A stretch of 38,046 nt of DNA from Acholeplasmatales bacterium (lineage in GTDB: Bacteria; Bacillota_I; Bacilli_A; Acholeplasmatales; Acholeplasmataceae), in contig QKIB01000114.1 in NCBI GenBank assembly GCA_003249785.1, forward strand, positions 1 to 38,046, in the 5' to 3' direction. The notes under the pieces are model-generated. The model did not search any database. It was given only the letters and a program-made list of their open reading frames with translations, and was not told the origin of the DNA. The translations under genes and the position numbers were made by a program. Numbering within the stretch: position 1 is the stretch's first letter; the number at the start of each line of letters is the position of its first letter. Positions 3,194 through 38,046 of the stretch are shown here, in pieces.

Positions 3194-3237
3194 TTGTAAT
3201 TTCCTTTCTTTCACTCTATTTTATTTAAATTATTTCC

Positions 3238-4332: not shown

Positions 4333-4356
4333 TGGTAAAATAACAAATGGTAAAAT
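4333..4356 (+). promoter_or_regulatory. Tandem extended -10 elements before the PPi-PFK gene
   Basis: TGGTAAAAT occurs twice, at 4333-4341 and 4348-4356, 15 bp apart. Each is a TGn-TAAAAT extended -10. No clear -35 was found for either. The second would give a leader of only about 17 bases before the ATG at 4380. Confidence 0.45.
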
Positions 4357-4379
4357 ATTACGAAAAGAATGGTGATTAC

Positions 4380-5624
4380 ATGAAAAATTTAGTAGGAGCA
4401 GCACTTTTGGGACAATCAGGTGGACCAACCAGTGTCATTAATGCAAGTGCGGCAGGTGTCTTTATTGAGGCACTCAAACAAGAAAACATTACAGAAGTCT
4501 ATGGAGCAGTGCACGGAATTAAGGGTGTCCTTCATGAAGACTTTTACGATATGGGTAAAGAAGATCCAGAACAATTGTTGTTACTCAAGAATACACCTTC
4601 ATCAGCTATCGGTAGTGTACGTTATAAGTTAAAGAATCCAAAAGTGGATGATAGTGAATACCAAAGACTCTTGGAAGTCTTTAAGAAATACAACATCCGT
4701 TACTTCTTCTATAATGGCGGAAACGACTCCATGGATACTTGCAACAAGATTAGTAAGTTCTTTAAGAAATCCGGTTACGATTGCAATGTCATCGGTGTTC
4801 CAAAGACTATTGATAATGATTTGAATGGTACAGATCATTCTCCAGGTTATGCAAGTGCTGCAAAGTATGTTGCTACCACACTCATGGAACTTTACCATGA
4901 TGCGACTGTTTATGATGCACCACAGGTGACCATCGTTGAAATCATGGGTAGAAATGCTGGATGGCTCACTGCCGCTGCTGCATTAGCACAAGCAAAAGGA
5001 CAGGGTCCAGATCTCATTTATCTACCAGAACTTCCATTTGATTTTGATGATTTCTTTGTTCACGTTCAACGCGTTTTAGCTGAAAAGGGTAAATGTATCG
5101 TTGCTGTAAGTGAAGGTGTTAAAACCAAAGATGGCAAATACATTCCAGAATTATTTGCTGATTTAAAAACTGATGCATTCGGTCATGCACAACTTGGTGG
5201 AACTGCACAAGTACTAGCTGAAGAAGTTGGCAAGAGAACCAAAGTCAAAGTCAGAGCGATTGAGTTCAGTTTATTACAACGTTCTTCTGCGCATCTTGCA
5301 TCAAAGATTGACGTTGAAGAAGCCTTCAAATCTGGTAGAAAAGCTGTTCAAGCTGCTGTCAGAGGTACAACAGATAAGATGGTTGGTTTTAAGCGTGTAT
5401 CCTCCAATCCTTATAAGATCAAGTATGTACTTCTTCCTCTTAAGTTAGCAGCAAACCATGAACAAAAAGTTCCAGAAGAATGGATTTTACCTGATGGAAA
5501 AGGCATGACTCAAGACTACTTAGATTACGCACTTCCACTCATTCAAGGAGAAAGTAAAGCGAAGCTTGTTGATGGTCTACCTCATTTTGCAAGACTTAAG
5601 AAAATTAGAGTTGAAAAGAAATAA
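4380..5624 (+). CDS. pfp: Pyrophosphate-dependent 6-phosphofructokinase
   Basis: The product is a phosphofructokinase of the longer PPi-using type, 414 residues from MKNLVGAALLGQSGG. GGTGAT just before that ATG can pair with the 16S tail; an upstream in-frame ATG at 4347 has no such site. Two residues mark the donor: GGNDSMDT near 112-119 has Asp where ATP enzymes have Gly, and VPKTIDND near 140-147 has Lys where ATP enzymes have Gly. EIMGRNAGWLTAAAALA contributes the substrate loop. PPi-PFK is reversible and saves ATP, and it pairs naturally with PPDK, which also consumes PPi. The gene is divergent from pfkA and closed by its own terminator. PPi-PFK activity is known from Acholeplasma; donor use here is deduced from residues only. 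Confidence 0.93.
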   Translation: MKNLVGAALLGQSGGPTSVINASAAGVFIEALKQENITEVYGAVHGIKGVLHEDFYDMGKEDPEQLLLLKNTPSSAIGSVRYKLKNPKVDDSEYQRLLEVFKKYNIRYFFYNGGNDSMDTCNKISKFFKKSGYDCNVIGVPKTIDNDLNGTDHSPGYASAAKYVATTLMELYHDATVYDAPQVTIVEIMGRNAGWLTAAAALAQAKGQGPDLIYLPELPFDFDDFFVHVQRVLAEKGKCIVAVSEGVKTKDGKYIPELFADLKTDAFGHAQLGGTAQVLAEEVGKRTKVKVRAIEFSLLQRSSAHLASKIDVEEAFKSGRKAVQAAVRGTTDKMVGFKRVSSNPYKIKYVLLPLKLAANHEQKVPEEWILPDGKGMTQDYLDYALPLIQGESKAKLVDGLPHFARLKKIRVEKK

Positions 5625-5713: not shown

Positions 5714-8700
5714 CTAGTTGTTATTCTTGAGTAATGTGATGAGCGAAGCTCTTAAAATACGATTGAGTGGGTTACCACCTTCAAAGTCTGATGGTACCAA
5801 CTGTGCCATTAAGATTGGCGTATTATGAACAGTGTCATCAATCAGATAATAAACGATGGTGTTCGTGTTATCTAACAACGTATCAATTTCAGCATCAGTA
5901 AGTGAAGCAAGTGCTGATGCATCAATACTTGATGAGAAGGTTGACAAGTTTGTAATACCAAAGATGTTCATCGCATCAACAATGCCATTCATTTCGTCAA
6001 TCTTGATGTCATATAATACTGGAGTTGGAACGATTAATGGATTATTGAGGTCTGGATCATAGTTTGGATCTCCGATTAATGCATATGCATCTGGATTATC
6101 AAGTGATGCATCATGAATACCCTTGGATATCATTCTGTAGACAATGAGTTTATCCAAAGCAATCAACGAGCTTAACATCGTTGCATCAAATGCATTGGTA
6201 TCGATCGTTACATCAGATAGATAAGTTGTTCCATAATTTGCAGGAGCAACACCGCCGATAGTTGTCATTGCGTCAATCAATCCAACAATTTCTGAATGTA
6301 ATAGATCGTATGTATTTCTGTAAGCTGTTGATGGAATACCATAATCATAACCACTTCTGACATCTGTAACTGCTGAGATCATTGGTGTTGACAAGATGTG
6401 ATCAATAATTGGTGAGTATCCTAATGCATCAGATTCGCCATACGCACTGATTGTGTAGAGATCTGCAAATGTAATAGATGAACCGTTGATTGAACCAGCA
6501 CCGGATGTGCCAATACCTAAGAGGTCAAGTGCATCTAATAAGTAATCAATTTCACTTCTGAGTAGATCTTCAGAGGATGCTGGAACATAACTTTCAGAAG
6601 GAATATTCGAAAGGTTCGTAATAATTGCCGTTGAAATCATTCTGTTGAGAATAATAGATTGATCTGGGAACGACTTCAAAGTTGCTACAGAAAGTGTGCT
6701 TTCGGTAACAGTAATTGCAGAAACCAAAACATTTGAATCATTACCAGCGAGTGGTAATAACGATTGTTGCATATACCCAATTTCAGAATCAGTCAAACGG
6801 TTAGCTGGGTTGCTACTAATGTATGCAGTATCTGGAATTCTACCAGCACCTAACATTGTAACGACGTTATCAGAGATCATCTGCTTGATGATAACGGAAC
6901 CGGTTGCTGTTGTATCCAGAGCTTGGGTTTGACCTACTGTCACATTCGTGCTGATTGTACTGACGGAGTCATTTGGTGAACCTAAAACTGATAGTGCATT
7001 TGCGATTGCAACAATTTCTTCATCGCTCAAGCGATCTGTATAAGTGAGGTGATAAGCATCTGCTGGAATATTGGCTTGACCAAACATCGTGATAACAGCA
7101 TCGGAGATGATGAACTTGATGATAGCTGATCCGTTGGTTGACAAGGACTGTGTTTGAGCAACGGTTACGTTGGTTGTTGTGATGGTTGAAATGACTGTAC
7201 TATCATGATCGCCTGGAACTGTAGATCCAGCAAAGACTTCAAGTGCAAGAATCATATTAGAAACTTCAGTAGACTTGAGGTTGTTACCTGGGGTATCTGA
7301 GATGTATGCATCATCAGGTACATTGGATAATCCAACAGCATCAATGATGGAATCAGAGATCAACTTGGTGATGATGAGTGATGGTGAAGCCTGCAAGGAC
7401 TTAAGCTGACCGATGGTGATGTCTGTACTAATGGTTGAGACTGGATCTGTTGGTCCACCTAATGTGTCTAGGATTGCAAGCATATCTGTGATTTCTTGAT
7501 CACTTAAGCGATCGGTATAAGTTGTGTTATATGCGGATGCAGGTACATTTGCTGAACCTATCATGGTGATGATTGAATCTGAAACAATAAACTTGATGAT
7601 TGATGAGCCGGTGCCTGAAGTATCTAGCGATTGTGCCTGGCCTACAGTCACATTGGTTGAAATAGTGGATACAAGAGCATTCATATCATTATTCGCAAGA
7701 ATATCGATTGCATCAATCATTGCTGATACTTCTGCTGCTGTTAAATAGTTATTGGAATCTTCTCCAACATATGCATCAATTGGAACATTTGCTGAACCTA
7801 CTGCATCAATAATTGAATCATTAATGAGTTTTTCAATAATTAATGATGGAGATGCATGTAAACTGTGAAGCTGTCCAACATTGATATCTGTGCTGATTGA
7901 AGATACCAAATCTGTAGATGCACCTAGTACATCAAGAACACCTAACATATCAGTGATTTCCTGATCACTCAGACGATCTGTATAGGTTGTGTTATATGCA
8001 GTAGCTGGAATCTTAGGTGCGGTGATCATAGTGATGATTGAATCTGAAATCACAAATTTAATGATGGATGATCCTGTACTTGATGTATCTAAGGATTGTG
8101 CTTGACCAATGGTTACATTCGTGCTAACAAGATTAACAGGAACATCATTTACACTAGGATATGTGATAGGATCATCATCAGCATTCTTTTGAGCAAGAAT
8201 ATTGAGTGCAGCAATCATCGCTGTAATTTCTTCTGGTTTCAAGTTATTACCTGGTGTATCAAGGAGATATGCATCGTTGGGAACTTTAGCAACTGTAACA
8301 GCTTCAATCACAGCATCTGAGATTAATTTCACTGTAATCACCGAAGTTAAATTATTGAGTGCATTGACTTGTCCAATATTGACATCCGTTGAAATGTTTG
8401 ATGAGTCAACAACTGTATTTGCATCTCCTCCCGCCAAAATACCGATGGCATCGATCATCGAATCAATTTCTGTATCAGTTAATCTATTGAGTGGGTTTGA
8501 ATCAATATAAGCGTCCGCTGGAATCTTTGCAGCTCCAATGGCATCAATGACTGCATCTGAAACCAATTGCTTGATGATGTAGGATGCAGTACCTTTGAGT
8601 TCTTGGGTTTGACCGACGGTCACAGTTGTTGAAATGGCAGTAACCAAGACGTTATCATCATGACCAGCAAGGACACTCAAAGCACCAGCCATTGCGATGA

Positions 8701-11700
8701 TTTCGGCATCGCTCAGTCTGTTTGTAGAAATGCCACCAACACGAGCTTCATCAGGAATCTTGCCTTCGTTGAGTGGATCGATTTGTTCGATGACTTTATC
8801 AGAAATGACTTGCTTCATGATGATGGAATCTACCAATACAAGAGCATTGACCTGTCCAACATTGATGTTGGTATCAATACTTGCAGCAGGTAATGTCAAA
8901 TCATTATTTGCCAGAATGACCATGGCATCAATCATCGAATCAATTTCCGAATCCAAGAATCGAGTTGTACCAGGAACTAATGCTTCAGTTGGAATAGTTA
9001 CTGTTCCAGTTAATGCATCTGTAACGGTATCCGATACCAATTGCTTGATGATATAAGACTCTGTACCTTTGAGTTGTACGGCTTGACCGACATTCACATC
9101 AGTACCGATTGCTGTTACTGGAACATCATCAACGGTTGGATATGTGATTGGATCATTGGTGACATTGCTTTGTGCTAAGATGAGCAATGCAGCAATCATC
9201 GCTTGTAATTCGGTATCTGTCAAACGGTTGTTTGTTGTAGGAACTGCGAGTTGATATGAAGCACCTAATAGAACAACATTACTTGATGATGAAAGTCCGT
9301 AAGCTGCATCTGGAATACTTGTTGTTGTACCTAAAGCATCAACAACAGCATCGGAGATGAGTTGTTTAATAATCACTGATGTCGTACCAGAAAGATTATC
9401 AACATCACCTACGGTGATTGTATTCATGTCAATACTGTCAATGGTCGCATTCGCATCATTGCCACTTAAAATATAGAGTGCATCAACGAGTGCATCGATT
9501 TCAGTTTGAGTCAACAAATTATCTGCTGGATCTCCTTCAAATGCATCAGCTGGAATGACTCCGGTTGCTGATGGATCTAGTGCATCAATGATAGCTTGTG
9601 ATAATAAAGATTGAACGATCGCTGAATCGGTTTGAGTTAGAACATCCGTGATATCGCCTATTGTAATTGTTGATGGATCAGGTGGGTTAGAAAGATCTGT
9701 GACACCTAAAATACTCATCGCGGTAAATGCATCTTCAACTTCGGTCTTCTTAATCATTGTGTCATAATCACCTGATGTTTCAAATGCTGTATCAGGTAAT
9801 GTCATTGTACTTTGATTTTTAATCATTAAATCAACAACCGTGTAAAGATATGTCGAATCTAAGACAATGCCAATATCTGTACTGGTTAAAGAAGTCACTG
9901 TATCCATGATATTCCCAGTATTATCAAAATTATCAATGCCCATGATGGTTAATCCATTGAACAAATTGTAGATTTCTTGTTCGGTCAATCGTGGTTCTGC
10001 ACTGCTCGTTAGAGCGATAGTTGGTATGCTAAAATCTGCAGATGTGAATTGTCCAGAACCAATTGTATCGATTACCTGAGGTGCAAGTAACAACTGAGAT
10101 ATTTTATCGTCCAAATAGATTGATGCTAAGAATCGATGCATGTCATCTTGTCCAGATAAATCCTCATTAGCGCCAACCATATTTACAAGCGTCGTAAATG
10201 GATCTGCTGAGGTATCGGTCAAATTAAGCATTGCAAATGAAATCATGAGATTATGTAATTCATCTTTGGTCATCAAACCATTTTCGACACCTGTTGTGCC
10301 TTGCGCATCAAGAGGAACACTCATATCAAGCGTGATTGGGTTATCACCAAACGCTCCTGAAAGTTGACTACCAACATAATTACCAAGTCCTTCATTTTCA
10401 AACATGCGACCTAAAATGATGTAGACATAATTTGATTCTATGAACTTTGTAAATTTATCATTGGCAGGATCTTGAGGATCAACCATGCCTGAAAAAGTAT
10501 CCATACTGATTGTGGATGGATTACCTAGAACAGCAAAAGATTTTAATAAACTGCTAACTTCTTCTGCTTTGACAGCACCTTCATTATCTAGTAACAATGG
10601 ATCGACTGCGAAGAAATTGTCATCAGCAACAAATAAATCCTGTGCACCATTGATTTTAGATACGAGTGATGCTTGCATATCAGGATTTAGTAGCGCATCA
10701 CTAACCATACCTCTGATAATTGTGATATTGCCGAGTGCATCCAAACTACTATCATCAAGTTGACTGTATGCATCGAGATATGCACTGGTTCCACCTGCAT
10801 TCTTCACATCACCTAGAGTAGTTGCATTCATGGAATCAAATGCATCAGTAGCAACAATTGCCAAACCATTGATAAGTTCAACAATCATGCCTTGAGCGAG
10901 CATATCACCATCCATGGCAATCGCTGGTGTGGTCAGGGCATAACCTAAAGATGTTTCTGTTGAAGCACCTAAGGTATTGATAATATTGACCAGACTGGTT
11001 CTTAGGATTTGTGATGAATCCAGACTGTCAAATGCTGCATGTGCCTTGACGGGATCTGCGTATTGTGTAAATATGGAGACCGGTGCTGTTGACGTATCTG
11101 CCATCATAGCTTGTACATCATGTACAGATAAGGTTAAAGCACTAGACCCTTCAAACGATGCTCCCAAATCAAGGATGGCACCTAAAAAGGCGTTGACTTC
11201 TGTCTTCCATGTCGCACTTTCTGGACTTAGGTCTGCAAGGGTTGATGGAATCGCGATGTATTTCGACATGTTCGCATCTTGTGAGAACAAATCAATGTTA
11301 TAAGCAATATTCGTAAAGAGCAAGTTGGAATGGTTGTTCAAGTCTGTAGACATCAGATAGGACCTAAAGGTCTCATCTGCCAATAAAGGCGCAAAGTCAA
11401 TGTCTTCGAAACTTGCATAATCGCCAGCGTTATCATATGTATATTTTGCAGCATAATAAGCAAGACCTAAAATGGATGCGACATCATGACCGAGATCAAC
11501 GGTTGTTGGAACATACAGTTGGTCAATCGAGCTTGAGTCTTTTGCATATTGCAACGCAGTGACACCCATACGATCCAAAAGCTGCAAGCTATTGAATGAA
11601 TCTTCTAATGCTGAAAATTGTGTATCGTTTAATGATCCAAATTGTGAGAATAATTGAACCTTTTCATCCAAAGTCATCGTTGAAAAACTTTTAATTTCGG

Positions 11701-13486
11701 ACATACTGGTGAAATCATAAACAGATTCAACGATGGTTAGTAAATTATTAACTTCCTGTCCAAAATTGAAATCGACGACACCTGATGTTGGATCACTCAT
11801 CAATGCTTCATTGACCAAATCCTTAAGTTGTTGATCAGTAACAAATCGATCAACCAATGCTGGACTTGCGATTTCTAAAGCGATGTTCACGATTTGACTA
11901 TCTTCAAATACATGACTAACAATCGTTCTGACTGAATCCATATGATCAGTGATTGCACTATCGATAAAGCCCATTGTATCCGCTGAAGCTCCGAGTAAAT
12001 CGGATAAACCTAATTTGAATGCTTCAGTATAAATATCAGCAACATTAACGAATTCATCGTTCCAGTTAATATCAGCAACTGCAGTTTGGATATCATCTGC
12101 GAGTTCTGCACCAACATTATCACCAAATTGAGTATAAAGTCCATAATCAATACCAGCACTGAGCAAAATCAAAGACTGAAGTTGACCAACCGCCGCAATG
12201 ATATTACCGAATGCGGTCGCTTGATCTTGCGTCATGTTGGCAAGTGAATCAGGATTTTCCATATAACTCATCAGTTCATCGACTGATCCAAATTGAAGAA
12301 TCGCATCGACGATGCCATAGATATTCATGAATTCGACTGACCAGTCGATATTTGTGAATTCATTAAGTGCTGCTGCTGTTGCAGGGTCATCATAAGGATT
12401 GCTATATTGACTTGGCAAGAAATTCTTGAGTCCATATTCTGTAGCAAATGGAATCAGATAACTGAGTAAATCCGATTGACTGATATAAGTGAAGATTTGT
12501 TCGATATCTCCAAGGTTTGCACTAGATATGGTTGTATAGTCAAAATTACTATCTAAATACCCACCATCAATCAAGATACCGGCAATACCGACGATACCTT
12601 CAAGTTCTTCACCAAAATTCAGTTGGGCAACAGCCACACCTGCATCTTTAACTTGTGTAGTAAACACGCGATTGAAAATATATTGCTCAATAGGCTTTCC
12701 GCCAATTGTGATATCTTTCGTTATGGATGACAAACCACCTTGATTCATCTCGGAGATATTATTCAAAATATCTTGAATCTGAGAAGGTATGGCGATCAGA
12801 TTCTGATTACCGTCTGTACTTAAGGTCTGTACATTTTCATTCTCGACGGTGATGGCATCAGAGACACTTGCCACATACGAAGACAAGACCAAAATAGGGA
12901 TTAAAAAAATAAAAGCGACGACAAAGCCTCTGACGGCTCCCATCGCCCCTCCGAAAAAGCGTCCCAAAAGACTCTTCTTGAGTTTCTTGCTTGGAACAAA
13001 TTTCTTTGAATTGTTTTCGTTTTCCTGATATTCGATTTCTGCTTTTGCATTTTGTGATTTAAGGAAAGCTTTTTTGATCCCGTGTTTCCAAATTGGCTTG
13101 AAAATCGCGAGTGTCAGGAAAAACTTAATGACTGGGTAAAGCAGGATGTATGCAATGATTCTTAAAACTAGATCGGCAATTGCTACTGCAAATCCAACAA
13201 TCGCTGGATCTTCAGCGTACGATGCAAACTCGGTTGGAATCTGGAACCCTGTGTAATTCTGAACCATTTGTAAAACGGTTGGTATAGAGAGAACATTGTC
13301 AAAAACCCAATTGAATGAGATGTTTGCAACAATTAGAAGTGTAACCACCGTCATGATGAGACTGACCACCGTGTAATAGGTTGATTTCTTAGATCCTCTG
13401 GAAAATCCAATTAAAAAATGAATCCCTACAAAAAAGCCAATAATCCCCCATTGAATCATCACAAATGATGGTATACCTGATGGCAT
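5714..13486 (-). CDS. Giant CvpA-like membrane protein with a very long repeat ectodomain
   Basis: One uninterrupted frame of 2590 residues. The N-terminus is hydrophobic, with likely helices at 8-28, 37-57, 94-129 (one or two passes) and 177-204. A Lys-rich loop (about 130-176) precedes the last helix, and LGRFFGGAMGAVRGFVVAF resembles the CvpA (colicin V production) family signature. CvpA proteins are normally only about 160-190 residues. By the positive-inside rule the remaining roughly 2380 residues lie outside the cell. They consist of divergent helical repeats, are rich in Asp, Ser, Thr, Ile and Ala, and I saw no Cys. The last repeat is cut short and the protein ends in KNNN with no anchor. 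AAGGGTGAA lies 7 bases before the ATG. The gene has its own promoter and terminator, so it is a single-gene unit. Function unknown; adhesion, surface layer or envelope organisation are guesses. Confidence 0.9.
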   Translation of the reverse strand: MPSGIPSFVMIQWGIIGFFVGIHFLIGFSRGSKKSTYYTVVSLIMTVVTLLIVANISFNWVFDNVLSIPTVLQMVQNYTGFQIPTEFASYAEDPAIVGFAVAIADLVLRIIAYILLYPVIKFFLTLAIFKPIWKHGIKKAFLKSQNAKAEIEYQENENNSKKFVPSKKLKKSLLGRFFGGAMGAVRGFVVAFIFLIPILVLSSYVASVSDAITVENENVQTLSTDGNQNLIAIPSQIQDILNNISEMNQGGLSSITKDITIGGKPIEQYIFNRVFTTQVKDAGVAVAQLNFGEELEGIVGIAGILIDGGYLDSNFDYTTISSANLGDIEQIFTYISQSDLLSYLIPFATEYGLKNFLPSQYSNPYDDPATAAALNEFTNIDWSVEFMNIYGIVDAILQFGSVDELMSYMENPDSLANMTQDQATAFGNIIAAVGQLQSLILLSAGIDYGLYTQFGDNVGAELADDIQTAVADINWNDEFVNVADIYTEAFKLGLSDLLGASADTMGFIDSAITDHMDSVRTIVSHVFEDSQIVNIALEIASPALVDRFVTDQQLKDLVNEALMSDPTSGVVDFNFGQEVNNLLTIVESVYDFTSMSEIKSFSTMTLDEKVQLFSQFGSLNDTQFSALEDSFNSLQLLDRMGVTALQYAKDSSSIDQLYVPTTVDLGHDVASILGLAYYAAKYTYDNAGDYASFEDIDFAPLLADETFRSYLMSTDLNNHSNLLFTNIAYNIDLFSQDANMSKYIAIPSTLADLSPESATWKTEVNAFLGAILDLGASFEGSSALTLSVHDVQAMMADTSTAPVSIFTQYADPVKAHAAFDSLDSSQILRTSLVNIINTLGASTETSLGYALTTPAIAMDGDMLAQGMIVELINGLAIVATDAFDSMNATTLGDVKNAGGTSAYLDAYSQLDDSSLDALGNITIIRGMVSDALLNPDMQASLVSKINGAQDLFVADDNFFAVDPLLLDNEGAVKAEEVSSLLKSFAVLGNPSTISMDTFSGMVDPQDPANDKFTKFIESNYVYIILGRMFENEGLGNYVGSQLSGAFGDNPITLDMSVPLDAQGTTGVENGLMTKDELHNLMISFAMLNLTDTSADPFTTLVNMVGANEDLSGQDDMHRFLASIYLDDKISQLLLAPQVIDTIGSGQFTSADFSIPTIALTSSAEPRLTEQEIYNLFNGLTIMGIDNFDNTGNIMDTVTSLTSTDIGIVLDSTYLYTVVDLMIKNQSTMTLPDTAFETSGDYDTMIKKTEVEDAFTAMSILGVTDLSNPPDPSTITIGDITDVLTQTDSAIVQSLLSQAIIDALDPSATGVIPADAFEGDPADNLLTQTEIDALVDALYILSGNDANATIDSIDMNTITVGDVDNLSGTTSVIIKQLISDAVVDALGTTTSIPDAAYGLSSSSNVVLLGASYQLAVPTTNNRLTDTELQAMIAALLILAQSNVTNDPITYPTVDDVPVTAIGTDVNVGQAVQLKGTESYIIKQLVSDTVTDALTGTVTIPTEALVPGTTRFLDSEIDSMIDAMVILANNDLTLPAASIDTNINVGQVNALVLVDSIIMKQVISDKVIEQIDPLNEGKIPDEARVGGISTNRLSDAEIIAMAGALSVLAGHDDNVLVTAISTTVTVGQTQELKGTASYIIKQLVSDAVIDAIGAAKIPADAYIDSNPLNRLTDTEIDSMIDAIGILAGGDANTVVDSSNISTDVNIGQVNALNNLTSVITVKLISDAVIEAVTVAKVPNDAYLLDTPGNNLKPEEITAMIAALNILAQKNADDDPITYPSVNDVPVNLVSTNVTIGQAQSLDTSSTGSSIIKFVISDSIITMITAPKIPATAYNTTYTDRLSDQEITDMLGVLDVLGASTDLVSSISTDINVGQLHSLHASPSLIIEKLINDSIIDAVGSANVPIDAYVGEDSNNYLTAAEVSAMIDAIDILANNDMNALVSTISTNVTVGQAQSLDTSGTGSSIIKFIVSDSIITMIGSANVPASAYNTTYTDRLSDQEITDMLAILDTLGGPTDPVSTISTDITIGQLKSLQASPSLIITKLISDSIIDAVGLSNVPDDAYISDTPGNNLKSTEVSNMILALEVFAGSTVPGDHDSTVISTITTTNVTVAQTQSLSTNGSAIIKFIISDAVITMFGQANIPADAYHLTYTDRLSDEEIVAIANALSVLGSPNDSVSTISTNVTVGQTQALDTTATGSVIIKQMISDNVVTMLGAGRIPDTAYISSNPANRLTDSEIGYMQQSLLPLAGNDSNVLVSAITVTESTLSVATLKSFPDQSIILNRMISTAIITNLSNIPSESYVPASSEDLLRSEIDYLLDALDLLGIGTSGAGSINGSSITFADLYTISAYGESDALGYSPIIDHILSTPMISAVTDVRSGYDYGIPSTAYRNTYDLLHSEIVGLIDAMTTIGGVAPANYGTTYLSDVTIDTNAFDATMLSSLIALDKLIVYRMISKGIHDASLDNPDAYALIGDPNYDPDLNNPLIVPTPVLYDIKIDEMNGIVDAMNIFGITNLSTFSSSIDASALASLTDAEIDTLLDNTNTIVYYLIDDTVHNTPILMAQLVPSDFEGGNPLNRILRASLITLLKNNN
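5717..10800 (-). repeat. C-terminal (class B) protein repeat array of the giant gene
   Basis: About 16 clear and four more divergent units of roughly 78-115 residues. The core reads S-x-I-I-K-x-L-I-S-D-x-V-I, then I-P-x-D-A-Y, then N-R-L-T-D-x-E-I-x-x-M-I-x-A-L-x-I-L-A, then V-S-x-I-S-T-x-V-T-V-G-Q. Conservation is highest at about 6620-9740. Between 7000 and 8000 two subtypes alternate, giving a higher-order period of about 470 bp: the TTYTDRLSD subtype recurs near 7030, 7505 and 7975. Copies differ at many bases, so the duplications are not recent. Confidence 0.85.
11090..12625 (-). repeat. N-terminal (class A) protein repeat array of the giant gene
   Basis: Weaker repeats with a period near 95 residues. 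A recurring segment has an aromatic or Asn-Phe start, an acidic-hydrophobic pair and a helix: LNFGEELEGIVGIAG (about 289), IDWSVEFMNIYGIVD (about 380), INWNDEFVNVADIYT (about 473), FNFGQEVNNLLTIVE (about 573), VDLGHDVASILGLAY and TWKTEVNAFLGAILD. The pattern resembles the E-I-x-x-M-x-x-A-L helix of class B, so both classes may share an ancestor. Confidence 0.6.
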
Positions 13487-31326: not shown

Positions 31327-31354
31327 AAAAGACTAGTGCGCTAGTCTTTTTTTT
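31325..31354. terminator. Bidirectional terminator overlapping the aroC stop
   Basis: AAAAAGACTAG-TGCG-CTAGTCTTTTT followed by T on both strands. It closes the HxlR gene (plus) and the aromatic operon (minus). The aroC stop codon TAG is part of the stem. Confidence 0.92.
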
Positions 31355-32345
31355 GCATTTGATAAGCTTGATTTAAGAGATAAAGATCCGCTAAGACGAT
31401 TGCGATTGCATTTTCTAAGACAATCCCTGCACGTCTTGCGATACAGACATCATGCCTGCCACCTATCTCAAGTTTTTCAACATCTTTGTTTTCAAAATTG
31501 AAGGTTTCTTGAGGTTTTTGAATACTCGATGTAGGTTTGATGAAGACTTTGACTACGAGATCATTTCCGTTAGAAATACCTCCGGAGATTCCTCCGCTAT
31601 GATTGGTCTTCGTCTTTCCTTTTTCATTTAAGATTTCATCATTAAACTCAGATCCTTTGAGCTCAATACCAGAAAATCCTGATCCGATTTCAACACCTTT
31701 GACAGCTGGAATAGAAAACATCATCTTACCGATTTCTGCATCCAATTTATTAAAGAAGGGTTCGCCTAATCCAATTGTCATGTTTTTAACTGTGATTTCG
31801 ATGATACCACCAACAGAGTCCCCTTGTTTCTGAATATCCGAAAGATATGCATCCAATTTGCTCATATCACGTAGTAAACCGACTTGAACGAGTTCATGAT
31901 GAAACGCAAATGGCAATATCATCTTAGCAATCGCTCCAGCAGCAACAATCGGTGCGGTGAGTCGGCCAGAAAATCTGCCTCCCCCTCGATAATCCTGAAA
32001 ACCTTGATATTTGATTTTAGAGACTAAATCCGCATGACCAGGTCTAGGTTGCTTGATCAAATGTTCATAATCACTGGATTTGACATCCTTGTTTTCAATC
32101 ATCAAGTGAATCGGAGACCCAGTTGAAAATCCGTTGAAAACACCAGAAGTGATTTCAAATACATCGGTTTCTTTTCTTGGTGTTGTTCCGATAGCTCCTG
32201 ATTGTCGTAATTTGAGATCATTAGTTATCTTTGTTTCATCGATCTTGATGCCTGCAGGCATCCCATCGATGACAACACCAATTGCTTTTTGGTGAGATTC
32301 TCCATATAAAGTTATTTTGAATAGATTACCGTAACTATTCATCAT
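31341..32345 (-). CDS. aroC: Chorismate synthase
   Basis: Catalyses EPSP to chorismate with reduced FMN. 334 residues, a little shorter than most (about 360). SYGNLFKITLYGESHQKAIG holds the N-terminal active-site His, RPGHADLVSKIKY and RGGGRFSGRLTAPIVAAG are core motifs, and GRHDVCIARRAGIVLENAIA is the C-terminal signature. Two adjacent ATG codons (32345 and 32342) follow AAAGGAAGTGAT; either may be used. It overlaps aroE by 11 bp and is the last gene of the operon. Reduced FMN could come from flavodoxin or a flavin reductase, both present elsewhere in the window, but this link is speculative. Confidence 0.97.
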   Translation of the reverse strand: MMNSYGNLFKITLYGESHQKAIGVVIDGMPAGIKIDETKITNDLKLRQSGAIGTTPRKETDVFEITSGVFNGFSTGSPIHLMIENKDVKSSDYEHLIKQPRPGHADLVSKIKYQGFQDYRGGGRFSGRLTAPIVAAGAIAKMILPFAFHHELVQVGLLRDMSKLDAYLSDIQKQGDSVGGIIEITVKNMTIGLGEPFFNKLDAEIGKMMFSIPAVKGVEIGSGFSGIELKGSEFNDEILNEKGKTKTNHSGGISGGISNGNDLVVKVFIKPTSSIQKPQETFNFENKDVEKLEIGGRHDVCIARRAGIVLENAIAIVLADLYLLNQAYQMQKKD

Positions 32346-33120
32346 AAATCACTTCCTTTAACAGTTTCAAGAGACTTGGTGTTCGTTCAATGATTTCGTC
32401 CAACCAGATTTCTTCACTCTTGATAGCCTGAATCATGAGCATATCCAATCCATTGTATCCTTTTTTTGCGTCCTTCATAATTTGTGTCATTGGTGGGTTA
32501 TAAACAAGATCAATCACGATCTTACCCATGACTTCCTCTTTAGTAAGTACAGAGACATGCTCGTTGGGATAGGTTCCAATCGGCGTCGCTTGAACATAAA
32601 AATCAACATCATCGGGATTAATATCTTTATACTCTATGACATGTTCAAAGGGATATGCACTGTCCCTTAAGATACGCGTAACGACCGTGACGCGTGCACC
32701 TGAATCTATCAGTGCATAATATGCAGCTTTGGCTGCACCACCGGTACCTAAAATATAGACATGCTTGTTTTCAACATCAATATGATGTGTTTCCAATAAA
32801 CCTAAGAAACCATCATAGTCCGTATTGTCACCGACAACTTGTCCATTTCTCAAAGAAATGGTGTTGACTGCACCAATACGTTTCGCCTTATGTGTCAATT
32901 CATCAAGCATAGGCAAGATGCGTTCCTTATAGGGAATCGTGACATTAAATCCTTGATAATACCCATCTCTGAGCAAATCCAAGAGTTTAGGTATCTCATC
33001 AGCATCTACATCAATCAGTTCATACGCACTTTCCAGTTTCAATCTGCGTGTAATGGCTTGATGAATCAATGGGGATTTGCTGTAGCCAATTTTATAACCG
33101 ATAAGTCCAAATCTAATCAT
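32335..33120 (-). CDS. aroE: Shikimate dehydrogenase
   Basis: Reduces 3-dehydroshikimate with NADPH. 261 residues, near normal length. The substrate domain has IGYSKSPLIHQA, FNVTIPYKERI with the catalytic Lys, and VGDNTDYDGF with the catalytic Asp. The Rossmann part has ILGTGGAAKAAYYAL and VTVVTR, the NADP-type end of the second strand. Its ATG overlaps the chorismate mutase TGA as ATGA. ATPIGTYPN is the usual later motif. Confidence 0.97.
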   Translation of the reverse strand: MIRFGLIGYKIGYSKSPLIHQAITRRLKLESAYELIDVDADEIPKLLDLLRDGYYQGFNVTIPYKERILPMLDELTHKAKRIGAVNTISLRNGQVVGDNTDYDGFLGLLETHHIDVENKHVYILGTGGAAKAAYYALIDSGARVTVVTRILRDSAYPFEHVIEYKDINPDDVDFYVQATPIGTYPNEHVSVLTKEEVMGKIVIDLVYNPPMTQIMKDAKKGYNGLDMLMIQAIKSEEIWLDEIIERTPSLLKLLKEVIYDE

Positions 33121-33371
33121 TTCTGATATGCCTTGGAAAGATGCATTAAATGCGTTAGAAAAGATTCATAATAAGGCCATGTTTTTTCATCGCCATATAA
33201 AACTCTTCTTTTTTCAAGAAGTTCTCTTTCTCTCTTTTCATCGTAAATTGATAAGTTATTTTCTTTTTTATAATTGCCTATCTTTAAAGAAACATCCATT
33301 CTTTGTTTGAATAGATCCATCATTTTCTGATCGATTGCATCAATTTCTTTTCTTAATTCATCAAGATTCAT
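33117..33371 (-). CDS. Chorismate mutase, AroQ type (stand-alone)
   Basis: An 84-residue all-helical enzyme that converts chorismate to prephenate. The ATG at 33371 follows a full AGGAGGTGA site; a GTG three codons upstream overlaps that site. LDELRKEIDAIDQKMMDLF, RMDVSLKIGNYK and DEKRERELLEKR carry the three-helix pattern with the conserved Arg, Arg, Lys and Glu/Arg positions. It is not fused to prephenate dehydrogenase, dehydratase or DAHP synthase. It overlaps the end of aroA by 11 bp. Its product feeds TyrA, encoded four genes upstream in the same operon. Confidence 0.93.
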   Translation of the reverse strand: MNLDELRKEIDAIDQKMMDLFKQRMDVSLKIGNYKKENNLSIYDEKRERELLEKRRVLYGDEKTWPYYESFLTHLMHLSKAYQK

Positions 33372-34620
33372 GAATGTCACCTCCTAAAGCTTCGTAGACT
33401 TTAAAAAAGTCTGGATATGATTTATTGACTGATTCTGCACCGATGATGGTCACTGGACCATCTGCACGGATGGCAGCTATCGCAATCGCCATTGCGATTC
33501 TGTGATCGTTATAGGCATCAAATGTCTGATTACCTTTGAGTGTTTGTTGGCCGATGATTGTGACTGTATCATCTTCTACTGTGATTTGAACGCCAAATTT
33601 CGTCAAGGTTTGAACCATAGCTTCCAATCGGTCAGATTCTTTGATTCTTAAGCGAGAAGCATTTAGAAACGTTGTTTTGTATTCGCTTAAAGCAGCAAGA
33701 ACCATCAAGATGGGACCTAAATCAGGAATTTGACTTAAATCAATGGTTGTTCCATACGTCTTACCGGGCGTGATCTGATACATCTTTTCCATTTCATCAT
33801 AGAGAATCTCACCTTCCATCTCTTTGATGATATCAAGGATTTTTGCATCCCCTTGCTTGCTGATTGGATTGAGATTGAAAAGATTGATTTGCTTTCCAAT
33901 CAAGCTTGCAACCATCCAAAATGCAGCTTGAGAATAATCCGCTTCAACGATTAAGTTTTGAGGATTGTATGATTGCCCACCACGAATGTAATAAAATTGA
34001 TCAGCTTCAATCACGTGGATGCCAAATTGTTTTAACACTCCAAGTGTTAAGCCAACATACCCTTTGGATTCCAAAGGTGTCAAGACTTCAATCACTGAAT
34101 CTTTAGCAACAAGTGGTAAAGCGAAAAGAAACCCTGAAAGAAATTGTGAACTGATATCACCTCTTAAGAAATAATACCCTCCACGCAATGGTCCTTGAAC
34201 TTCTAATGGCAGATTGTGTTCACCGAAACGCTTGTAATGTAGTTGTTTATGATCCATCATATTGAAATAAACTTCGAGTGTACGCTCAGGGAGTCGTCCT
34301 TTTCCATCAAATGTGACTTTTTCATTTGATAATAAAGCTAAGGGAATCATGAATCTTAGGGTTGATCCGGATTCATCACAATCAATCACCTTTCCATCGT
34401 ATGCCCACTTTCCACCAATCACTTGATTTTGATCAAATGCGATACCAAAAGATTTCAATGCTTTCTGGGTTGCACTGATGTCTAGGGAGTCCAAGACATT
34501 ATCGATTGTAGATGTACCTTTTGCCAAAGCAGCAGCAATCAAATAACGATGGGAGAGGGATTTTGATGAAACCACTGAGACTGAGCCTGTAAGTGGTTTA
34601 GGATGGATGGTGATGTTCAT
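33361..34620 (-). CDS. aroA: 3-phosphoshikimate 1-carboxyvinyltransferase (EPSP synthase)
   Basis: Joins shikimate 3-phosphate and PEP. 419 residues in two similar domains. SSKSLSHRYLIAAALA near 18-33 carries the catalytic Lys and SHR. ESGSTLRFMIPLALL stands where other forms have NAGT. SSQFLSGFLFALPL, RIKESDRLEAM, YNDHRIAMAIAIAA and SVNKSYPDFF are typical. Its ATG directly follows the aroB stop (TAAATG), with GGTGAG inside aroB as the binding site. Confidence 0.97.
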   Translation of the reverse strand: MNITIHPKPLTGSVSVVSSKSLSHRYLIAAALAKGTSTIDNVLDSLDISATQKALKSFGIAFDQNQVIGGKWAYDGKVIDCDESGSTLRFMIPLALLSNEKVTFDGKGRLPERTLEVYFNMMDHKQLHYKRFGEHNLPLEVQGPLRGGYYFLRGDISSQFLSGFLFALPLVAKDSVIEVLTPLESKGYVGLTLGVLKQFGIHVIEADQFYYIRGGQSYNPQNLIVEADYSQAAFWMVASLIGKQINLFNLNPISKQGDAKILDIIKEMEGEILYDEMEKMYQITPGKTYGTTIDLSQIPDLGPILMVLAALSEYKTTFLNASRLRIKESDRLEAMVQTLTKFGVQITVEDDTVTIIGQQTLKGNQTFDAYNDHRIAMAIAIAAIRADGPVTIIGAESVNKSYPDFFKVYEALGGDIHES

Positions 34621-35628
34621 TTAGAGCTCACCAACCTTAAGAATGTGTATGTTCGCTTCTCCTGGTTTGGAAACCAAGATAAAATGTAATCCATCTTTTA
34701 AATTTTTCTTATCGTTCATGATGAAATCACGGAAATCTTCAGCCTTCAGTAAAGGTTCCTTGACCAAGTTTCTTTTGATTAATAGTTCTTTGACTTCATT
34801 ATAGAGTGCTTGATGCGTCTCACCGAGTTTGACGCCAAGTTCTAAAGCTAAAAGCATGCCATAACTGACTGCTTCGCCATGCAAATAGGTTTCATAATTG
34901 AATTTCTTTTCAATGGCATGTCCATAGGTATGCCCAAAATTGAGATACATGCGTTCCTTATGATCATAGGGGTCTAAAAGTACAACAGATCGTTTGACCT
35001 GAATGGCCATGATGATTTCATCTTCACTCACTTTTTCATGATCTAAAAGATCATGATAAAGTTTTTTATCACCAATCAACCCCGCCTTAATCATTTCAGC
35101 AAGTCCGTTTCTATAGTCTCTTGGTTCCAGCGTATCTAGAAAAGTTGGATCGACATAAACAAATTTTGGATTATAAAATGCTCCAACAAGATTCTTACCT
35201 TCTGGTAAATCAATTCCGACCTTACCGCCAATAGATGAATCGACCATTGCAAGCAATGTCGTTGGAATTTGAATAAACGCGATGCCTCGATATAAAGAAG
35301 CTGAGACAAATCCTGCCAAATCACCGACCACTCCGCCACCTAAGGCAATAATCAAATGATCGCGTTTGATCTTTTTTTCAATGAGTTCATGAATCACTTG
35401 TTGATAGGTTTCAAAAGACTTGGAATGTTCTCCGGGTTTGACGACAACGAAAAATAACTGGAAGTTGGGTAGAGCCTCTTTCAGTTTTCCTGCATAAAGT
35501 TTTTCTACATGTTCATCAGTGATGACATAAATCACGTGTCCATGATAAACCGATTGGATATGTCCCTGTAGATCTTTAAGCCCCTGATTTTCGATGTAAA
35601 TGTCATAATCCGGCATTTTAATGAACAT
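34621..35628 (-). CDS. aroB: 3-dehydroquinate synthase
   Basis: Converts DAHP to 3-dehydroquinate using NAD and a divalent metal. 335 residues from the ATG at 35628, which follows GAGGAAAG; a second Met four codons in is also possible. ALGGGVVGDLAGFVSASLYR, PTTLLAMVDSSIGGKVGID and GKNLVGAFYNPKFVYVD are hallmark motifs. The metal-binding His residues lie in FGHTYGHAIE and LHGEAVSYGM. It overlaps tyrA by 11 bp. The operon lacks the next enzyme, 3-dehydroquinase. Confidence 0.97.
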   Translation of the reverse strand: MFIKMPDYDIYIENQGLKDLQGHIQSVYHGHVIYVITDEHVEKLYAGKLKEALPNFQLFFVVVKPGEHSKSFETYQQVIHELIEKKIKRDHLIIALGGGVVGDLAGFVSASLYRGIAFIQIPTTLLAMVDSSIGGKVGIDLPEGKNLVGAFYNPKFVYVDPTFLDTLEPRDYRNGLAEMIKAGLIGDKKLYHDLLDHEKVSEDEIIMAIQVKRSVVLLDPYDHKERMYLNFGHTYGHAIEKKFNYETYLHGEAVSYGMLLALELGVKLGETHQALYNEVKELLIKRNLVKEPLLKAEDFRDFIMNDKKNLKDGLHFILVSKPGEANIHILKVGEL

Positions 35629-36448
35629 CAAATGCTTTCCTCTTTTCTTTCGCTTCTTTAAGATACTTCATGAGTGTTTCTTTATCTTCATCTAAGATGA
35701 CACCTTTAATGTGTTGGAGTTCTTTGATAAAATCATTGATTTTACCAACAAGAGCTTCTTTGTTTTCCAAAAACAATTCACTCCACATCACTTCATTGAT
35801 CTTGGCAATTCTTGTCAGATCACGAAATGAATCTCCGGTTGCCTCCTTGGTTTCTTTAAAATGATCGGATTGCATGAGCGCGACAGCTAGAACATGCGTG
35901 AGCTGACTGGTGAACGCGATGAGTTCATCATGCGTTTCTCGTCCTACCACTGTTATTTTACCAAACTTAAGATTGTTTGCGATTAAACGAAGGACTTCCT
36001 CATCCTTTTTTGCACTTCTTTTGCTTGAAACAATCAAGAAATTTGCATTTCTGAAGATTTTTGGATCTCTGGAGTCAAAACCAGAGGTTTCTTTACCTGC
36101 CATAGGGTGATGGGAAATATATCTGACATTAATGGGTAAAAGCTGTTCCAATTCGTTCATCATCCACACTTTGGTCCCACTCACATCCGTGACGAGTTGA
36201 CCCGTTCTAAAAAGATTAAGATGATTTTTGACAAATTCAATATTATGTTTTGGATAAAGCGCTAAAATCACTAAATCAGCTTTTGACAATGCATGGATGT
36301 CATTATCTTTTTGAACGAATCCTGACTCTATCGCTTCTCTTAATGGTCTTTCACTTCTGTTGTATGCATAGATTTCATGTCCATTTTGATGGAGTCCTTC
36401 GGCATAAGATGCTCCAATGATGCCTAAACCGACGATGAAAATCTTCAT
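35618..36448 (-). CDS. tyrA: Prephenate dehydrogenase
   Basis: Oxidises prephenate to 4-hydroxyphenylpyruvate, the tyrosine branch. 276 residues with the NAD-binding GLGIIGASYAEGL at the start and SHHPMAGKETSGFDSRD with the catalytic His near 115. The C-terminal helical dimer domain holds FTSQLTHVLAVAL and GDSFRDLTRIAK. It ends without an ACT domain, so feedback control by tyrosine on this enzyme may be missing; control may rest on DAHP synthase and on the leader upstream of the operon. Its ATG overlaps the DAHP synthase TGA by 4 bp. Confidence 0.95.
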   Translation of the reverse strand: MKIFIVGLGIIGASYAEGLHQNGHEIYAYNRSERPLREAIESGFVQKDNDIHALSKADLVILALYPKHNIEFVKNHLNLFRTGQLVTDVSGTKVWMMNELEQLLPINVRYISHHPMAGKETSGFDSRDPKIFRNANFLIVSSKRSAKKDEEVLRLIANNLKFGKITVVGRETHDELIAFTSQLTHVLAVALMQSDHFKETKEATGDSFRDLTRIAKINEVMWSELFLENKEALVGKINDFIKELQHIKGVILDEDKETLMKYLKEAKEKRKAFDVH

Positions 36449-37464
36449 TTCATACTCTTTCCTAGGACTTCAGATACTTTTTCAAGTTCTGTCATCATTT
36501 GACTGAACTTATTCAGTTTCAAGGATTGTGCGCCATCGCTTAATGCGTGTTCTGGATCATGGTGGACTTCAACGATGAGCCCATGTGCGCCGACTGCCAA
36601 ACTAGCAAGTGATAGTTTTTCAATCATATCCCATCTTCCTGCAGCATGCGATGGATCGACAATCACAGGTAGATGTGATAATTCCTTAACTGCTAAAACA
36701 GCACTGATATCCAATGTGTTTCTTGTATATTTTTCATAGGTACGAATGCCGCGTTCGCACAATATGACATTTTCATTACCACCAGCCATAATATATTCGG
36801 CTGACATTAACCACTCTTCGATGGTTGCTGATAGACCGCGTTTCAATAGAATAGGTTTATTGGTTTTTCCAAGTGCTTTGAGCAAATGGAAGTTTTGCAT
36901 GTTTCTTGCACCCACTTGGATGATATCAACATATTCTTCAAACAAAGGAATGAGATCCGGACTTGGAATTTCAGTAACAATCGCTAAATTGGTTTCATCT
37001 CCGATTTTTTTAAGAAGTTTCAACCCTTCAACTTCAAGTCCCTGAAAAGCATAAGGGGATGTTCTGGGCTTATAGGCACCGCCTCTTAAAATATGTGCAC
37101 CAGACTTCTTGACACTTTTAGCAATGATTCTTAGTTGTTCTTCAGATTCCACCGAACAAGGACCAGCCATGATGACAAACTGATCACCACCAATTTCAAT
37201 CCCATTCTTAATCTTGACAATCGTGTCTTTCTTCTTGAAACTTCGACTGGCTTTCTTGAATGGCGTCGAAACGCGAGTGACCTCCTTGACACCATCAAAG
37301 GCATATAAGTCAGAAGGATCAATTGATGACGTATCACCTATAATCCCAAAAACCATGACGTCATCCGTGGATGCATCTTTGATTTCTAAGTGTTTGGCTT
37401 TTAAATACTCGACTAACTTGTCATACTCCTTTTTTGTGGAGTTCTTCTTCATTTGTACAATCAT
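36445..37464 (-). CDS. aroF: 3-deoxy-7-phosphoheptulonate (DAHP) synthase, type I-beta with N-terminal regulatory domain
   Basis: First enzyme of the aromatic pathway: PEP + erythrose 4-phosphate to DAHP. 339 residues. The N-terminal ferredoxin/ACT-like domain (about 1-85) has the form found in Thermotoga-type enzymes that are inhibited by Tyr or Phe. The barrel has MAGPCSVESEEQLR, GGAYKPRTSPYAFQGL, IQVGARNMQNF, LLKRGLS, CERGIRTYEK and VDPSHAAGR. AGGAG lies 12 bases before the ATG at 37464; the ATG at codon 5 is a possible alternative. It is the first structural gene after the tyrosine leader and its attenuator. Confidence 0.96.
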   Translation of the reverse strand: MIVQMKKNSTKKEYDKLVEYLKAKHLEIKDASTDDVMVFGIIGDTSSIDPSDLYAFDGVKEVTRVSTPFKKASRSFKKKDTIVKIKNGIEIGGDQFVIMAGPCSVESEEQLRIIAKSVKKSGAHILRGGAYKPRTSPYAFQGLEVEGLKLLKKIGDETNLAIVTEIPSPDLIPLFEEYVDIIQVGARNMQNFHLLKALGKTNKPILLKRGLSATIEEWLMSAEYIMAGGNENVILCERGIRTYEKYTRNTLDISAVLAVKELSHLPVIVDPSHAAGRWDMIEKLSLASLAVGAHGLIVEVHHDPEHALSDGAQSLKLNKFSQMMTELEKVSEVLGKSMK

Positions 37465-37491: not shown

Positions 37492-37521
37492 AAAAAAATC
37501 CCTGAGAGGAACCCCAAGGAT
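37492..37521 (-). terminator. Attenuator terminator in the aromatic operon leader
   Basis: On the minus strand ATCCTTGGGG-TTCC-TCTCAGGGAT folds as a hairpin with G-T wobbles and is followed by seven T. It lies between the leader peptide and aroF, 28 bp before the aroF ATG, so it must be bypassed for the operon to be expressed. Confidence 0.85.
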
Positions 37522-37583
37522 GATAGTTATCATTTTTTGGCTGTTCCTTTATTCGCTCAAAAAGGAATGCCTAGCAATCCTTT
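37507..37583 (-). promoter_or_regulatory. Competing leader hairpins (attenuation control) of the aromatic operon
   Basis: Read on the minus strand. Segment 1 AAAGGATTGC (37574-37583) pairs with segment 2 GCATTCCTTT (37561-37570). Segment 2 can instead pair with segment 3 AAAGGAA (37544-37550). The longer segment 3, AGGAACAGCCAA (37537-37548), pairs with segment 4 TTGGGGTTCCT (37507-37517), enclosing a small TGATA-AC-TATCA hairpin (37521-37532). Segment 4 is also the 5' arm of the terminator. A ribosome at the leader stop codon would cover segment 1, allow 2:3 and so the terminator. A ribosome stalled at Tyr codons leaves 1:2 and 3:4 free, so transcription continues. Confidence 0.75.
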
Positions 37584-37586
37584 GAT

Positions 37587-37631
37587 CTATCGATATGCGT
37601 AATAATAGACAGCTTTCATGATTTTTAACAT
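37587..37631 (-). CDS. Tyrosine-rich leader peptide of the aromatic operon
   Basis: A 14-codon reading frame, MLKIMKAVYYYAYR, ending in TAG, with AAAGGTGAT at good spacing before the ATG. It holds four Tyr codons, three of them consecutive (TAT TAT TAC). It begins about 20 bases after the predicted transcription start, and segment 1 of the attenuator lies 3 bases after its stop codon. Such a short Tyr-rich frame directly before a hairpin set and genes that make tyrosine is best read as a sensor of charged tRNA-Tyr. It is too short for gene finders. No homologue can be claimed. Confidence 0.8.
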   Translation of the reverse strand: MLKIMKAVYYYAYR

Positions 37632-37657
37632 AGAAATCACCTTTCTTTGTTTGTTTT

Positions 37658-37686
37658 ATCGTATCACATTCCTTTTAAAAAGACAA
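37658..37686 (-). promoter_or_regulatory. Promoter of the aromatic operon
   Basis: TTGTCT, exactly 17 bases, then TACGAT preceded by TGA (extended -10) on the minus strand. The predicted start near 37651 leaves about 187 bases of leader before aroF. This -35 is the same as that of the giant CvpA-repeat gene. Confidence 0.7.
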
Positions 37687-37731
37687 TATCGGGGTTCAAA
37701 AATAAATAAATTACTTTTTTTCATTTAGGTA

Positions 37732-37778
37732 TTGTGTTTTGCACAGTAACGATATATAATAGTAGTGTGCAAAACACA
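37732..37778 (+). promoter_or_regulatory. PadR gene promoter with two palindromic operators
   Basis: TTGTGT (37732-37737), exactly 17 bases, TATAAT (37755-37760). The -35 lies in TGTGTTTTGCACA (37733-37745), and its exact inverse TGTGCAAAACACA (37766-37778) follows the -10. Each arm is itself a TGTG-N5-CACA palindrome. The centres are 33 bp apart, about three helical turns. Autorepression by the PadR protein is likely. Confidence 0.85.
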
Positions 37779-37792
37779 GTAAGGAGGTCATC

Positions 37793-38046
37793 ATGAATAC
37801 TCAATTTAAAAAAGGCATCCTGGAAATGTGTATTCTCTCACTCATTGATAAAAGAGACATGTATGGCTTTGAAGTGATTGAAAGACTATCCAGTGCGATT
37901 GAGGTCAACGAAAATACGGTTTACCCGATTCTTCGAAGACTAACAGGTCAGGGACTCTTTGATACCTATATGGAACAAACCAATATTGGTGCACCTAGAA
38001 AGTATTATCAGATCACTGAAGAAGGAAAAGAAAAACTCGATGAATA
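37793..38046 (+). CDS. PadR-family transcription regulator (partial, cut by window end)
   Basis: The first 84 codons of a winged-helix repressor. AAGGAGG lies directly upstream of the ATG. QFKKGILEMCILSLIDKRDM begins the first helix, YGFEVIERLS follows, NENTVYPILRRLTGQGLFD is the recognition segment, and GAPRKYYQITEEGKEKL is the wing and start of the dimer helix; these are standard PadR motifs. The rest lies beyond the window. PadR regulators often control a neighbouring membrane or ABC transport gene in the same operon; that gene would be downstream and is not visible. Confidence 0.95.
   Translation, partial: MNTQFKKGILEMCILSLIDKRDMYGFEVIERLSSAIEVNENTVYPILRRLTGQGLFDTYMEQTNIGAPRKYYQITEEGKEKLDE

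Follow-up and report, generated by a model that had tools for sequence, protein, structure and literature searches.

A tyrosine-codon leader and putative transcription attenuator upstream of aroF in Acholeplasmataceae and related Bacilli

The aromatic amino acid operon of an Acholeplasmatales bacterium is preceded by a short reading frame with clustered tyrosine codons and by an attenuator-like RNA, which probably couple the aro–tyrA operon to charged tRNA-Tyr by ribosome-mediated transcription attenuation (probability roughly 0.87, judged by comparison with the sequences of more than 60 relatives). The presence of a tyrosine leader and an attenuator structure before aroF is confirmed; from them we infer that ribosomes stall, in which order the steps take place, and which amino acid is sensed. 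The window analyzed, i.e., the whole stretch of 38,046 nt, is contig 46 of a draft assembly of 1.47 Mb. On its minus strand, the leader frame is followed by a hairpin, then by an antiterminator strand and by an intrinsic terminator, and finally by aroF, which starts 167 nt from the leader AUG and heads seven aromatic-pathway genes in the order aroF, tyrA, aroB, aroA, chorismate mutase, aroE, and aroC. A domain search matched both prephenate dehydrogenase domains of TyrA and no ACT domain, as anticipated in the original prediction made from the letters of this DNA. Judged by AroF, the closest relatives with a name are uncultured members of the Acholeplasmataceae, and the same genus appears to hold also Peloplasma aerotolerans (L097; AroF 84% identical). 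Elsewhere in the window, two diverging phosphofructokinase-family genes (3238–4188, minus strand; 4347–5624, plus strand) adjoin a pyruvate phosphate dikinase-like gene (569–3214, minus strand), and an open frame of 2590 residues spans positions 5714–13486 (minus strand).

All leader features that had been proposed are present on the minus strand (Table 1), and the predicted distances to segment 1 (24 nt from the first Tyr codon and 4 nt from the stop codon) are correct. The promoter-like hexamers are weak and fall under the threshold of a simple promoter scan; a promoter box, TGTGATAC(T/G)AT, recurs in relatives. The leader ATG at 37631 follows a Shine-Dalgarno sequence (AAAGGTGAT) rated as a strong ribosome site; AAAGGTGATTTCT stands 5' of the frame, and most of the genus has AGGTGAT 4 nt 5' of the ATG. 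The codons of the leader are ATG TTA AAA ATC ATG AAA GCT GTC TAT TAT TAC GCA TAT CGA TAG. The small hairpin between segment 3 and the terminator, which is paired in 97.4% of cells in relatives, would lie within the antiterminator, a role suggested by its position. The terminator proper (ATCCTTGGGGTTCCTCTCAGGGAT, 37521–37498) is followed by a T7 run and has a hairpin energy of −10.9 kcal/mol. Folding of the 181-nt leader RNA, one of the checks originally proposed, yields a z score of −3.8, with none of 200 shuffles equally stable. Hairpin 1:2 (37559–37583, minus strand) is itself followed by a T run in nearly all relatives, giving it the look of a weak terminator or pause site.

Table 1. Features of the aroF leader and the downstream operon, in positions of the window
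Feature	Positions	Strand	Basis
Putative sigma-A promoter, TTGTCT (37686–37681), 17-nt spacer, TACGAT (37663–37658)	37658–37686	minus	inferred by reading
Leader ribosome-binding site (RBS), AAGAAAGGTGATTTCT, before ATG	37632–37646	minus	read from sequence
Leader peptide frame, MLKIMKAVYYYAYR and stop; 14 codons, Tyr at codons 9, 10, 11, 13	37587–37631	minus	
Segment 0, GCTGTCTATTATTA; start of the Tyr run and the codons preceding it, partner of segment 3	37600–37613	minus	own-versus-swapped energies
Segment 1, AAAGGATTGC	37574–37583	minus	1:2 hairpin paired in relatives
Segment 2, GGCATTCCTTT; partner of segment 1 or 3	37561–37571	minus	own-versus-swapped energies
Segment 3, AAAGGAACAGCC; hub, pairs with segment 0 or RBS, segment 2, or terminator loop and 3' side	37539–37550	minus	
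Small hairpin, ATGATAACTATCAT, between segment 3 and terminator	37520–37533	minus	pairing in relatives
GTTCCT, antiterminator partner of segment 3, in terminator loop and 3' arm	37507–37512	minus	
Intrinsic terminator (4:5) with T run	37492–37521	minus	terminator scan
aroF, DAHP synthase, first gene of the operon	36445–37464	minus	TIGR01361 match
tyrA, aroB, aroA, chorismate mutase, aroE, aroC, remainder of the operon	31341–36448	minus	

Evidence for the tyrosine leader comes from the collected regions upstream of aroF; within the order, 95 of the 160 genomes searched have AroF matches. A Tyr-rich frame of 12–16 codons is present about 140–200 nt upstream of aroF in all genera of the family with a typical AroF, including Acholeplasma granularum (L090), and in one sister genus. 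In agreement with the original prediction, the Tyr-rich frame does occur in relatives that share this operon; it is absent before the divergent AroF copies that four genera carry and, among the aroF upstream regions of the order, throughout an Anaeroplasmataceae-like family. In the 53 distinct leaders, Tyr accounts for 225 of 705 codons (TAT 164, TAC 61) and Trp for none, and cluster positions 0, 1, 2, and 4 are occupied by Tyr in 53, 46, 49, and 46 leaders, respectively. The leaders were chosen by Tyr content (L026 by position), so that the fair test is the comparison with shuffled sequences: a clustered-Tyr frame occurs in 49 of the 53 upstream regions versus 0.52 expected (shuffle maximum 4), and in 0.36% of shuffles of the host's own leader. 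The frame, presumably translated, thus clusters codons for the product of the operon, as is typical of attenuators.

The second hallmark, an intrinsic terminator located ahead of the first gene, is present with its T run downstream of all 53 leaders. For each species, the duplex energy of its native segments was compared with that of swapped segments, using one random member for each of 15 genus-level clades in 100 draws. The mean z scores were −4.6 for segment 3 and its upstream partner (p < 0.05 in all draws), −4.1 for 2:3, −4.8 for segment 3 paired to the loop plus 3' arm of the terminator, and −7.2 for 4:5, with the own species better in every draw for all four; no control pair had a median p < 0.05, the nearest being the far-upstream control with segment 2 (p = 0.052). 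Hairpin 1:2 is 100% paired in 31 relatives and so nearly invariant that the swap comparison is uninformative. Among the pairings originally proposed, 2:3, 3:4, and 4:5 are thus kept through replacement between genera, whereas 1:2 is kept in relatives but hardly varies. The five segments hold up as well, but there is a sixth, the upstream partner of segment 3: in most lineages, it is made up of the initial Tyr codons together with the two to three codons that precede them, and in L121, L130, L133, and L136 of the RBS region instead.

In the 31 close relatives, 2:3 is paired in 96.8% of cells and the two conformers in 98% and 97%, with few pairs altered on both sides; 0:3 is paired in only 75% of cells in the close clade. 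The antiterminator conformer (1:2 plus 3:T) has no column covariation beyond shuffles in these barely variable segments, and the counts for 3:T are slightly off because the TTCC columns are broken up for three sequences of the alignment. The informative variation lies between genera, in the form of complementary helix replacement (2:3, 3:terminator, and 4:5). For example, segment 3 has GGAC with GUCC versus GGAAC with GUUCC in the host's genus; other lineages have GGAGAU with AUCUCC (L030), GCCCUC with GAGGGC in segments 0 and 3 (L054), or the RBS GGUCACAUU with segment 3 AAUGUGACC (L130). As far as comparison can tell, segment 3 coevolves with its three partners, and the putative antiterminator, mutually exclusive with the terminator, is kept in evolution.

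In the proposed mechanism, transcription would begin about 20 nt upstream of the leader AUG, with a ribosome trailing the RNA polymerase along the leader. When Tyr-tRNA is scarce, the ribosome would wait at the Tyr codons and cover segment 0, leaving hairpin 1:2 intact, and the free segment 3 would take GUUCCU from the terminator, allowing the polymerase to enter aroF. When Tyr-tRNA is plentiful, the ribosome would pass the Tyr codons and open segment 1, whereupon segment 3 would be sequestered by segment 2 and the terminator would fold. Without translation of the leader, termination is likewise expected, because segment 3 would then be captured by segment 0 or, in other lineages, by the RBS.

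The switch originally envisaged (read-through with 1:2 and 3:4 upon stalling at Tyr, termination with 2:3 upon finishing) gains support not only from the comparison but also from folding of partial transcripts of 24 representatives with a 30-nt ribosome mask, which describes equilibrium on fragments rather than kinetics. The mean number of antiterminator pairs is 3.3 with no ribosome, 9.3 with the A site on the first Tyr codon, and 4.7 with the ribosome at the stop codon; the stalled state exceeds the stop state in 23 of the 24 representatives (Wilcoxon, 6e-7). When the mask is moved codon by codon, the number stays on a plateau that begins about five codons ahead of the first Tyr codon and lasts to the second, and then falls toward the stop, declining past the second to third Tyr codon, which places the Tyr run at the downstream edge of the plateau; in this model, a stall at the codons directly before the Tyr run would antiterminate, too. 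The values for the host leader alone (5.1 with no ribosome, 13.4 stalled, and 12.0 at the stop) make its stop state less clear-cut than the average. Since this stop state is rich in antiterminator pairs and full-length RNA at equilibrium prefers the terminator in nearly every ribosome state, the argument requires co-transcriptional timing.

Ribosomes can also be stalled by the nascent peptide itself, as in TnaC and the Erm leaders. In such a case, the leader peptide together with tyrosine or another small molecule at the exit tunnel would arrest the ribosome, independently of hungry Tyr codons. The position of a short, conserved peptide ahead of a terminator and the preserved YYY.Y spacing are in agreement with this explanation, but the non-Tyr residues vary freely among the 53 leaders, the number of Tyr codons ranges from 2 to 6, and Phe may take the place of Tyr in the run. 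Moreover, low tyrosine would have to switch biosynthesis on, which is the opposite of a ligand-induced arrest on the leader RNA. We consider nascent-peptide arrest improbable, and attenuation at Tyr codons the better explanation.

A different type of frame is found upstream of Clostridia-type aroF (L068–L118; e.g., at −282 in L101), where 36 of 47 regions have a longer, F/Y/W-rich frame, whose core FWGFYFSAGYLF is conserved in Clostridium; a hairpin resembling a terminator (GAGAACTCATT...GAGTTCTC) lies downstream. The conserved residues of the frame might represent an arrest peptide that senses all three aromatic amino acids.

Chorismate-binding enzymes (TrpE, PabB, and MenF) are absent from all 20 genomes of the genus (the controls were found in 14 of 14), and prephenate dehydratase (PheA) is present in only 5 of the 20, which makes tyrosine the main or only aromatic product of the genus. 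The host's sole match to prephenate dehydratase is an incomplete frame where a contig ends (G000:C127:29-280); with the assembly listed as 5.24% contaminated, this fragment may or may not be the host's own. Phenylalanine has been suggested as the effector of a published motif, uORFC-13-1 (PMC8632094, as far as its accessible text goes), and at least one Phe codon occurs in 33 of the 53 leaders; in lineages with PheA, Phe codons lie near the Tyr run, and joint sensing of Tyr and Phe is plausible there. However, the leader of the host and 19 others have no Phe codon, all leaders have Tyr, and among the 22 genomes without PheA, none has Phe in the run. A phenylalanine attenuator is therefore a very unlikely explanation.

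Across the order, Phe codons in the stretch that begins two codons ahead of the cluster and extends to the leader's end occur in 19 of 28 genomes with prephenate dehydratase versus 0 of 22 without it; the numbers are 23 of 28 versus 8 of 22 for any Phe codon in the leader, and 11 versus 0 for Phe at or after the first Tyr codon. Fisher's test gives p = 2e-7 for Phe codons versus PheA, a value inflated by relatedness because it treats relatives as independent. Sounder evidence comes from three genera in which one PheA-less genome (94–99% complete) has no Phe in the cluster and its PheA-bearing relatives do (L031; L133, A. granularum; L027). The link is one-sided, since L137 and PheA-bearing members of two genera (that of the host and g15) have no Phe codons. 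No Phe-rich leaders were obvious upstream of pheA on reading three genomes of the genus. That the codons follow the products of the pathway (Tyr only, or Tyr plus Phe within the same stalling window where phenylalanine is also made, and no Trp) and that segment 3 serves as a three-way hub reading "not translated", "stalled", and "finished" is a combined proposition to which we give even odds. Through the correspondence between Phe codons and PheA, the speed at which regulatory codons change after the loss or gain of a pathway branch becomes a testable question of general scope.

The RNA might instead be a T-box, a riboswitch, or a protein-binding leader in which the short frame is incidental; its strong structure would fit, and the best weak Rfam match is PyrR (19.9 bits versus a threshold of 54). 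However, neither a T-box (RF00230), with its stem I, specifier loop, and T-box sequence, nor any other Rfam family was detected above threshold in the window; a permissive scan of the leader gave nothing credible, and the leader region has no tRNA. Among the Rfam families, no tRNA- or protein-binding structure of the kind named at the outset as a refuting case was found above threshold at the leader. The conserved elements are codons and mutually exclusive hairpins instead of a fixed receptor, and the Tyr frame is far above chance; we consider such a leader very unlikely. The host genome does have 11 T-box matches, all outside the window, and the eight best adjoin what we take, from their sequences, to be the tRNA-synthetase genes valS, metG, pheS, alaS, trpS, asnS, serS, and ileS.

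Least probable of all is control at the promoter, e.g., by the divergent PadR-family gene that starts at 37793, with the terminator only lowering basal expression: there is an inverted repeat in the gap, but it surrounds the −10-like region of the PadR gene rather than the aro promoter, and the leader is conserved out to Izemoplasmatales. Promoter-level control and attenuation can, in any case, coexist. The repeat (TGTGTTTTGCACA...TGTGCAAAACACA, 37725–37786) suggests that the PadR-family regulator (37793–38044, plus strand) is self-regulated, and a similar layout seems to be present in several relatives (L010, L011, and L018).

The reach of the attenuator was explored with a covariance model spanning the hairpin to the terminator, which finds exactly one copy in 44 of the 160 genomes of the order; 43 of them precede aroF, and the weakest is a chance match. 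The model misses Acholeplasma proper, where the leader occurs but the terminators differ. A scan of 395 genomes of the class added three matches with aroF and one chance match; the two weak matches counted here as chance (G151 and G453) were rejected because they have neither aroF nor a Tyr-cluster frame. The three matches were assigned to Izemoplasmatales because Candidatus Izemoplasma acidinucleici (L066) shares the upstream frame with L237. There are twelve such leaders in Izemoplasmatales, three of them already among the 53 (L218 = L052, L222 = L054, L233 = L064). Their Tyr-to-hairpin distance of 19–24 nt is the same as elsewhere, but the stop codon may fall in the loop of hairpin 1:2 or between segments 2 and 3. 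The originally proposed geometry is therefore conserved in its Tyr-to-hairpin spacing but not in the position of the stop codon; judging from these sequences, the fixed point is the putative stall site.

The evidence from the RNA is weaker in Izemoplasmatales than elsewhere: among the twelve leaders, 4:5 and 2:3 are the only expected pairs to reach p < 0.05, as does the unexpected pair 2:4, and the pairing of segment 3 with its upstream partner is not significant; in some of them (e.g., L227), the stop-state model does not favor termination. The frames of L213–L215, L220, L221, L223, and L227 enter or cross hairpin 1:2 and stop either in the loop of that hairpin (...KEC, ...REC) or past segment 2 and ahead of segment 3 (...CYGRPFSS), so that the same bases serve as codons and attenuator stem. 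In two genomes of an Acholeplasmataceae genus (G024:C51 and G069:C51; L146 and L145), the AroF frame contains an in-frame TGA, possibly because TGA is read as Trp or because of a frame error.

The aroF leader is very probably identical with uORFC-13-1, a motif reported in a 2021 survey in RNA Biology (PMC8632094), an identity based on host, gene, and layout rather than on a base-by-base comparison. According to the accessible text of the survey, the motif comprises 24 examples from Acholeplasma and unassigned environmental sequences, occurs exclusively before aroF, consists of a uORF, an intrinsic terminator, and another hairpin, and was proposed to encode a phenylalanine uORF on account of a U run. 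The present element agrees with this description in having a uORF and a terminator, in occurring only before aroF, and in being present in Acholeplasma, but the leader of the host and 19 others lack the Phe codon (at least one) expected in the U run. In comparison with that description, the present set comprises 53 distinct leaders and further ones from Izemoplasmatales, a second order, and has Tyr codons and alternative pairings with their partners in place of a Phe reading. Tyrosine fits such a leader better than phenylalanine, which corrects the amino acid assigned to the published candidate, as given in that text. In full-text searches of a mostly open-access literature, no description of a Tyr-codon leader-peptide attenuator was found, and no paper other than the survey mentions uORFC-13-1.

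The trp, his, and phe attenuators of Escherichia coli combine a leader rich in codons for the product, mutually exclusive hairpins, and a terminator before the first gene. The aroF leader shares these elements and the expected termination in the absence of translation, but differs from them in its Tyr codons, in the extra hairpin 1:2 between the leader and the antiterminator strand, in a hub strand with three alternative partners, and in its host, a member of the Mollicutes-related Bacilli. Leader-peptide attenuation is known also in Firmicutes, with Leu codons in the ilv-leu operon of Staphylococcus aureus (PMC5794164) and with His leaders (PMC2965389, PMC9413887). By their descriptions, these have in common with the aroF leader that leader-peptide attenuation replaces a T-box, but they concern other amino acids and other genes. 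The present findings would extend leader-peptide control of biosynthesis to two orders of Mollicutes-related Bacilli, one of which presumably uses T-boxes for its tRNA synthetases. The aroF tyrosine leader is a new version of a known type of mechanism, previously represented in these bacteria only by a brief and differently read candidate.
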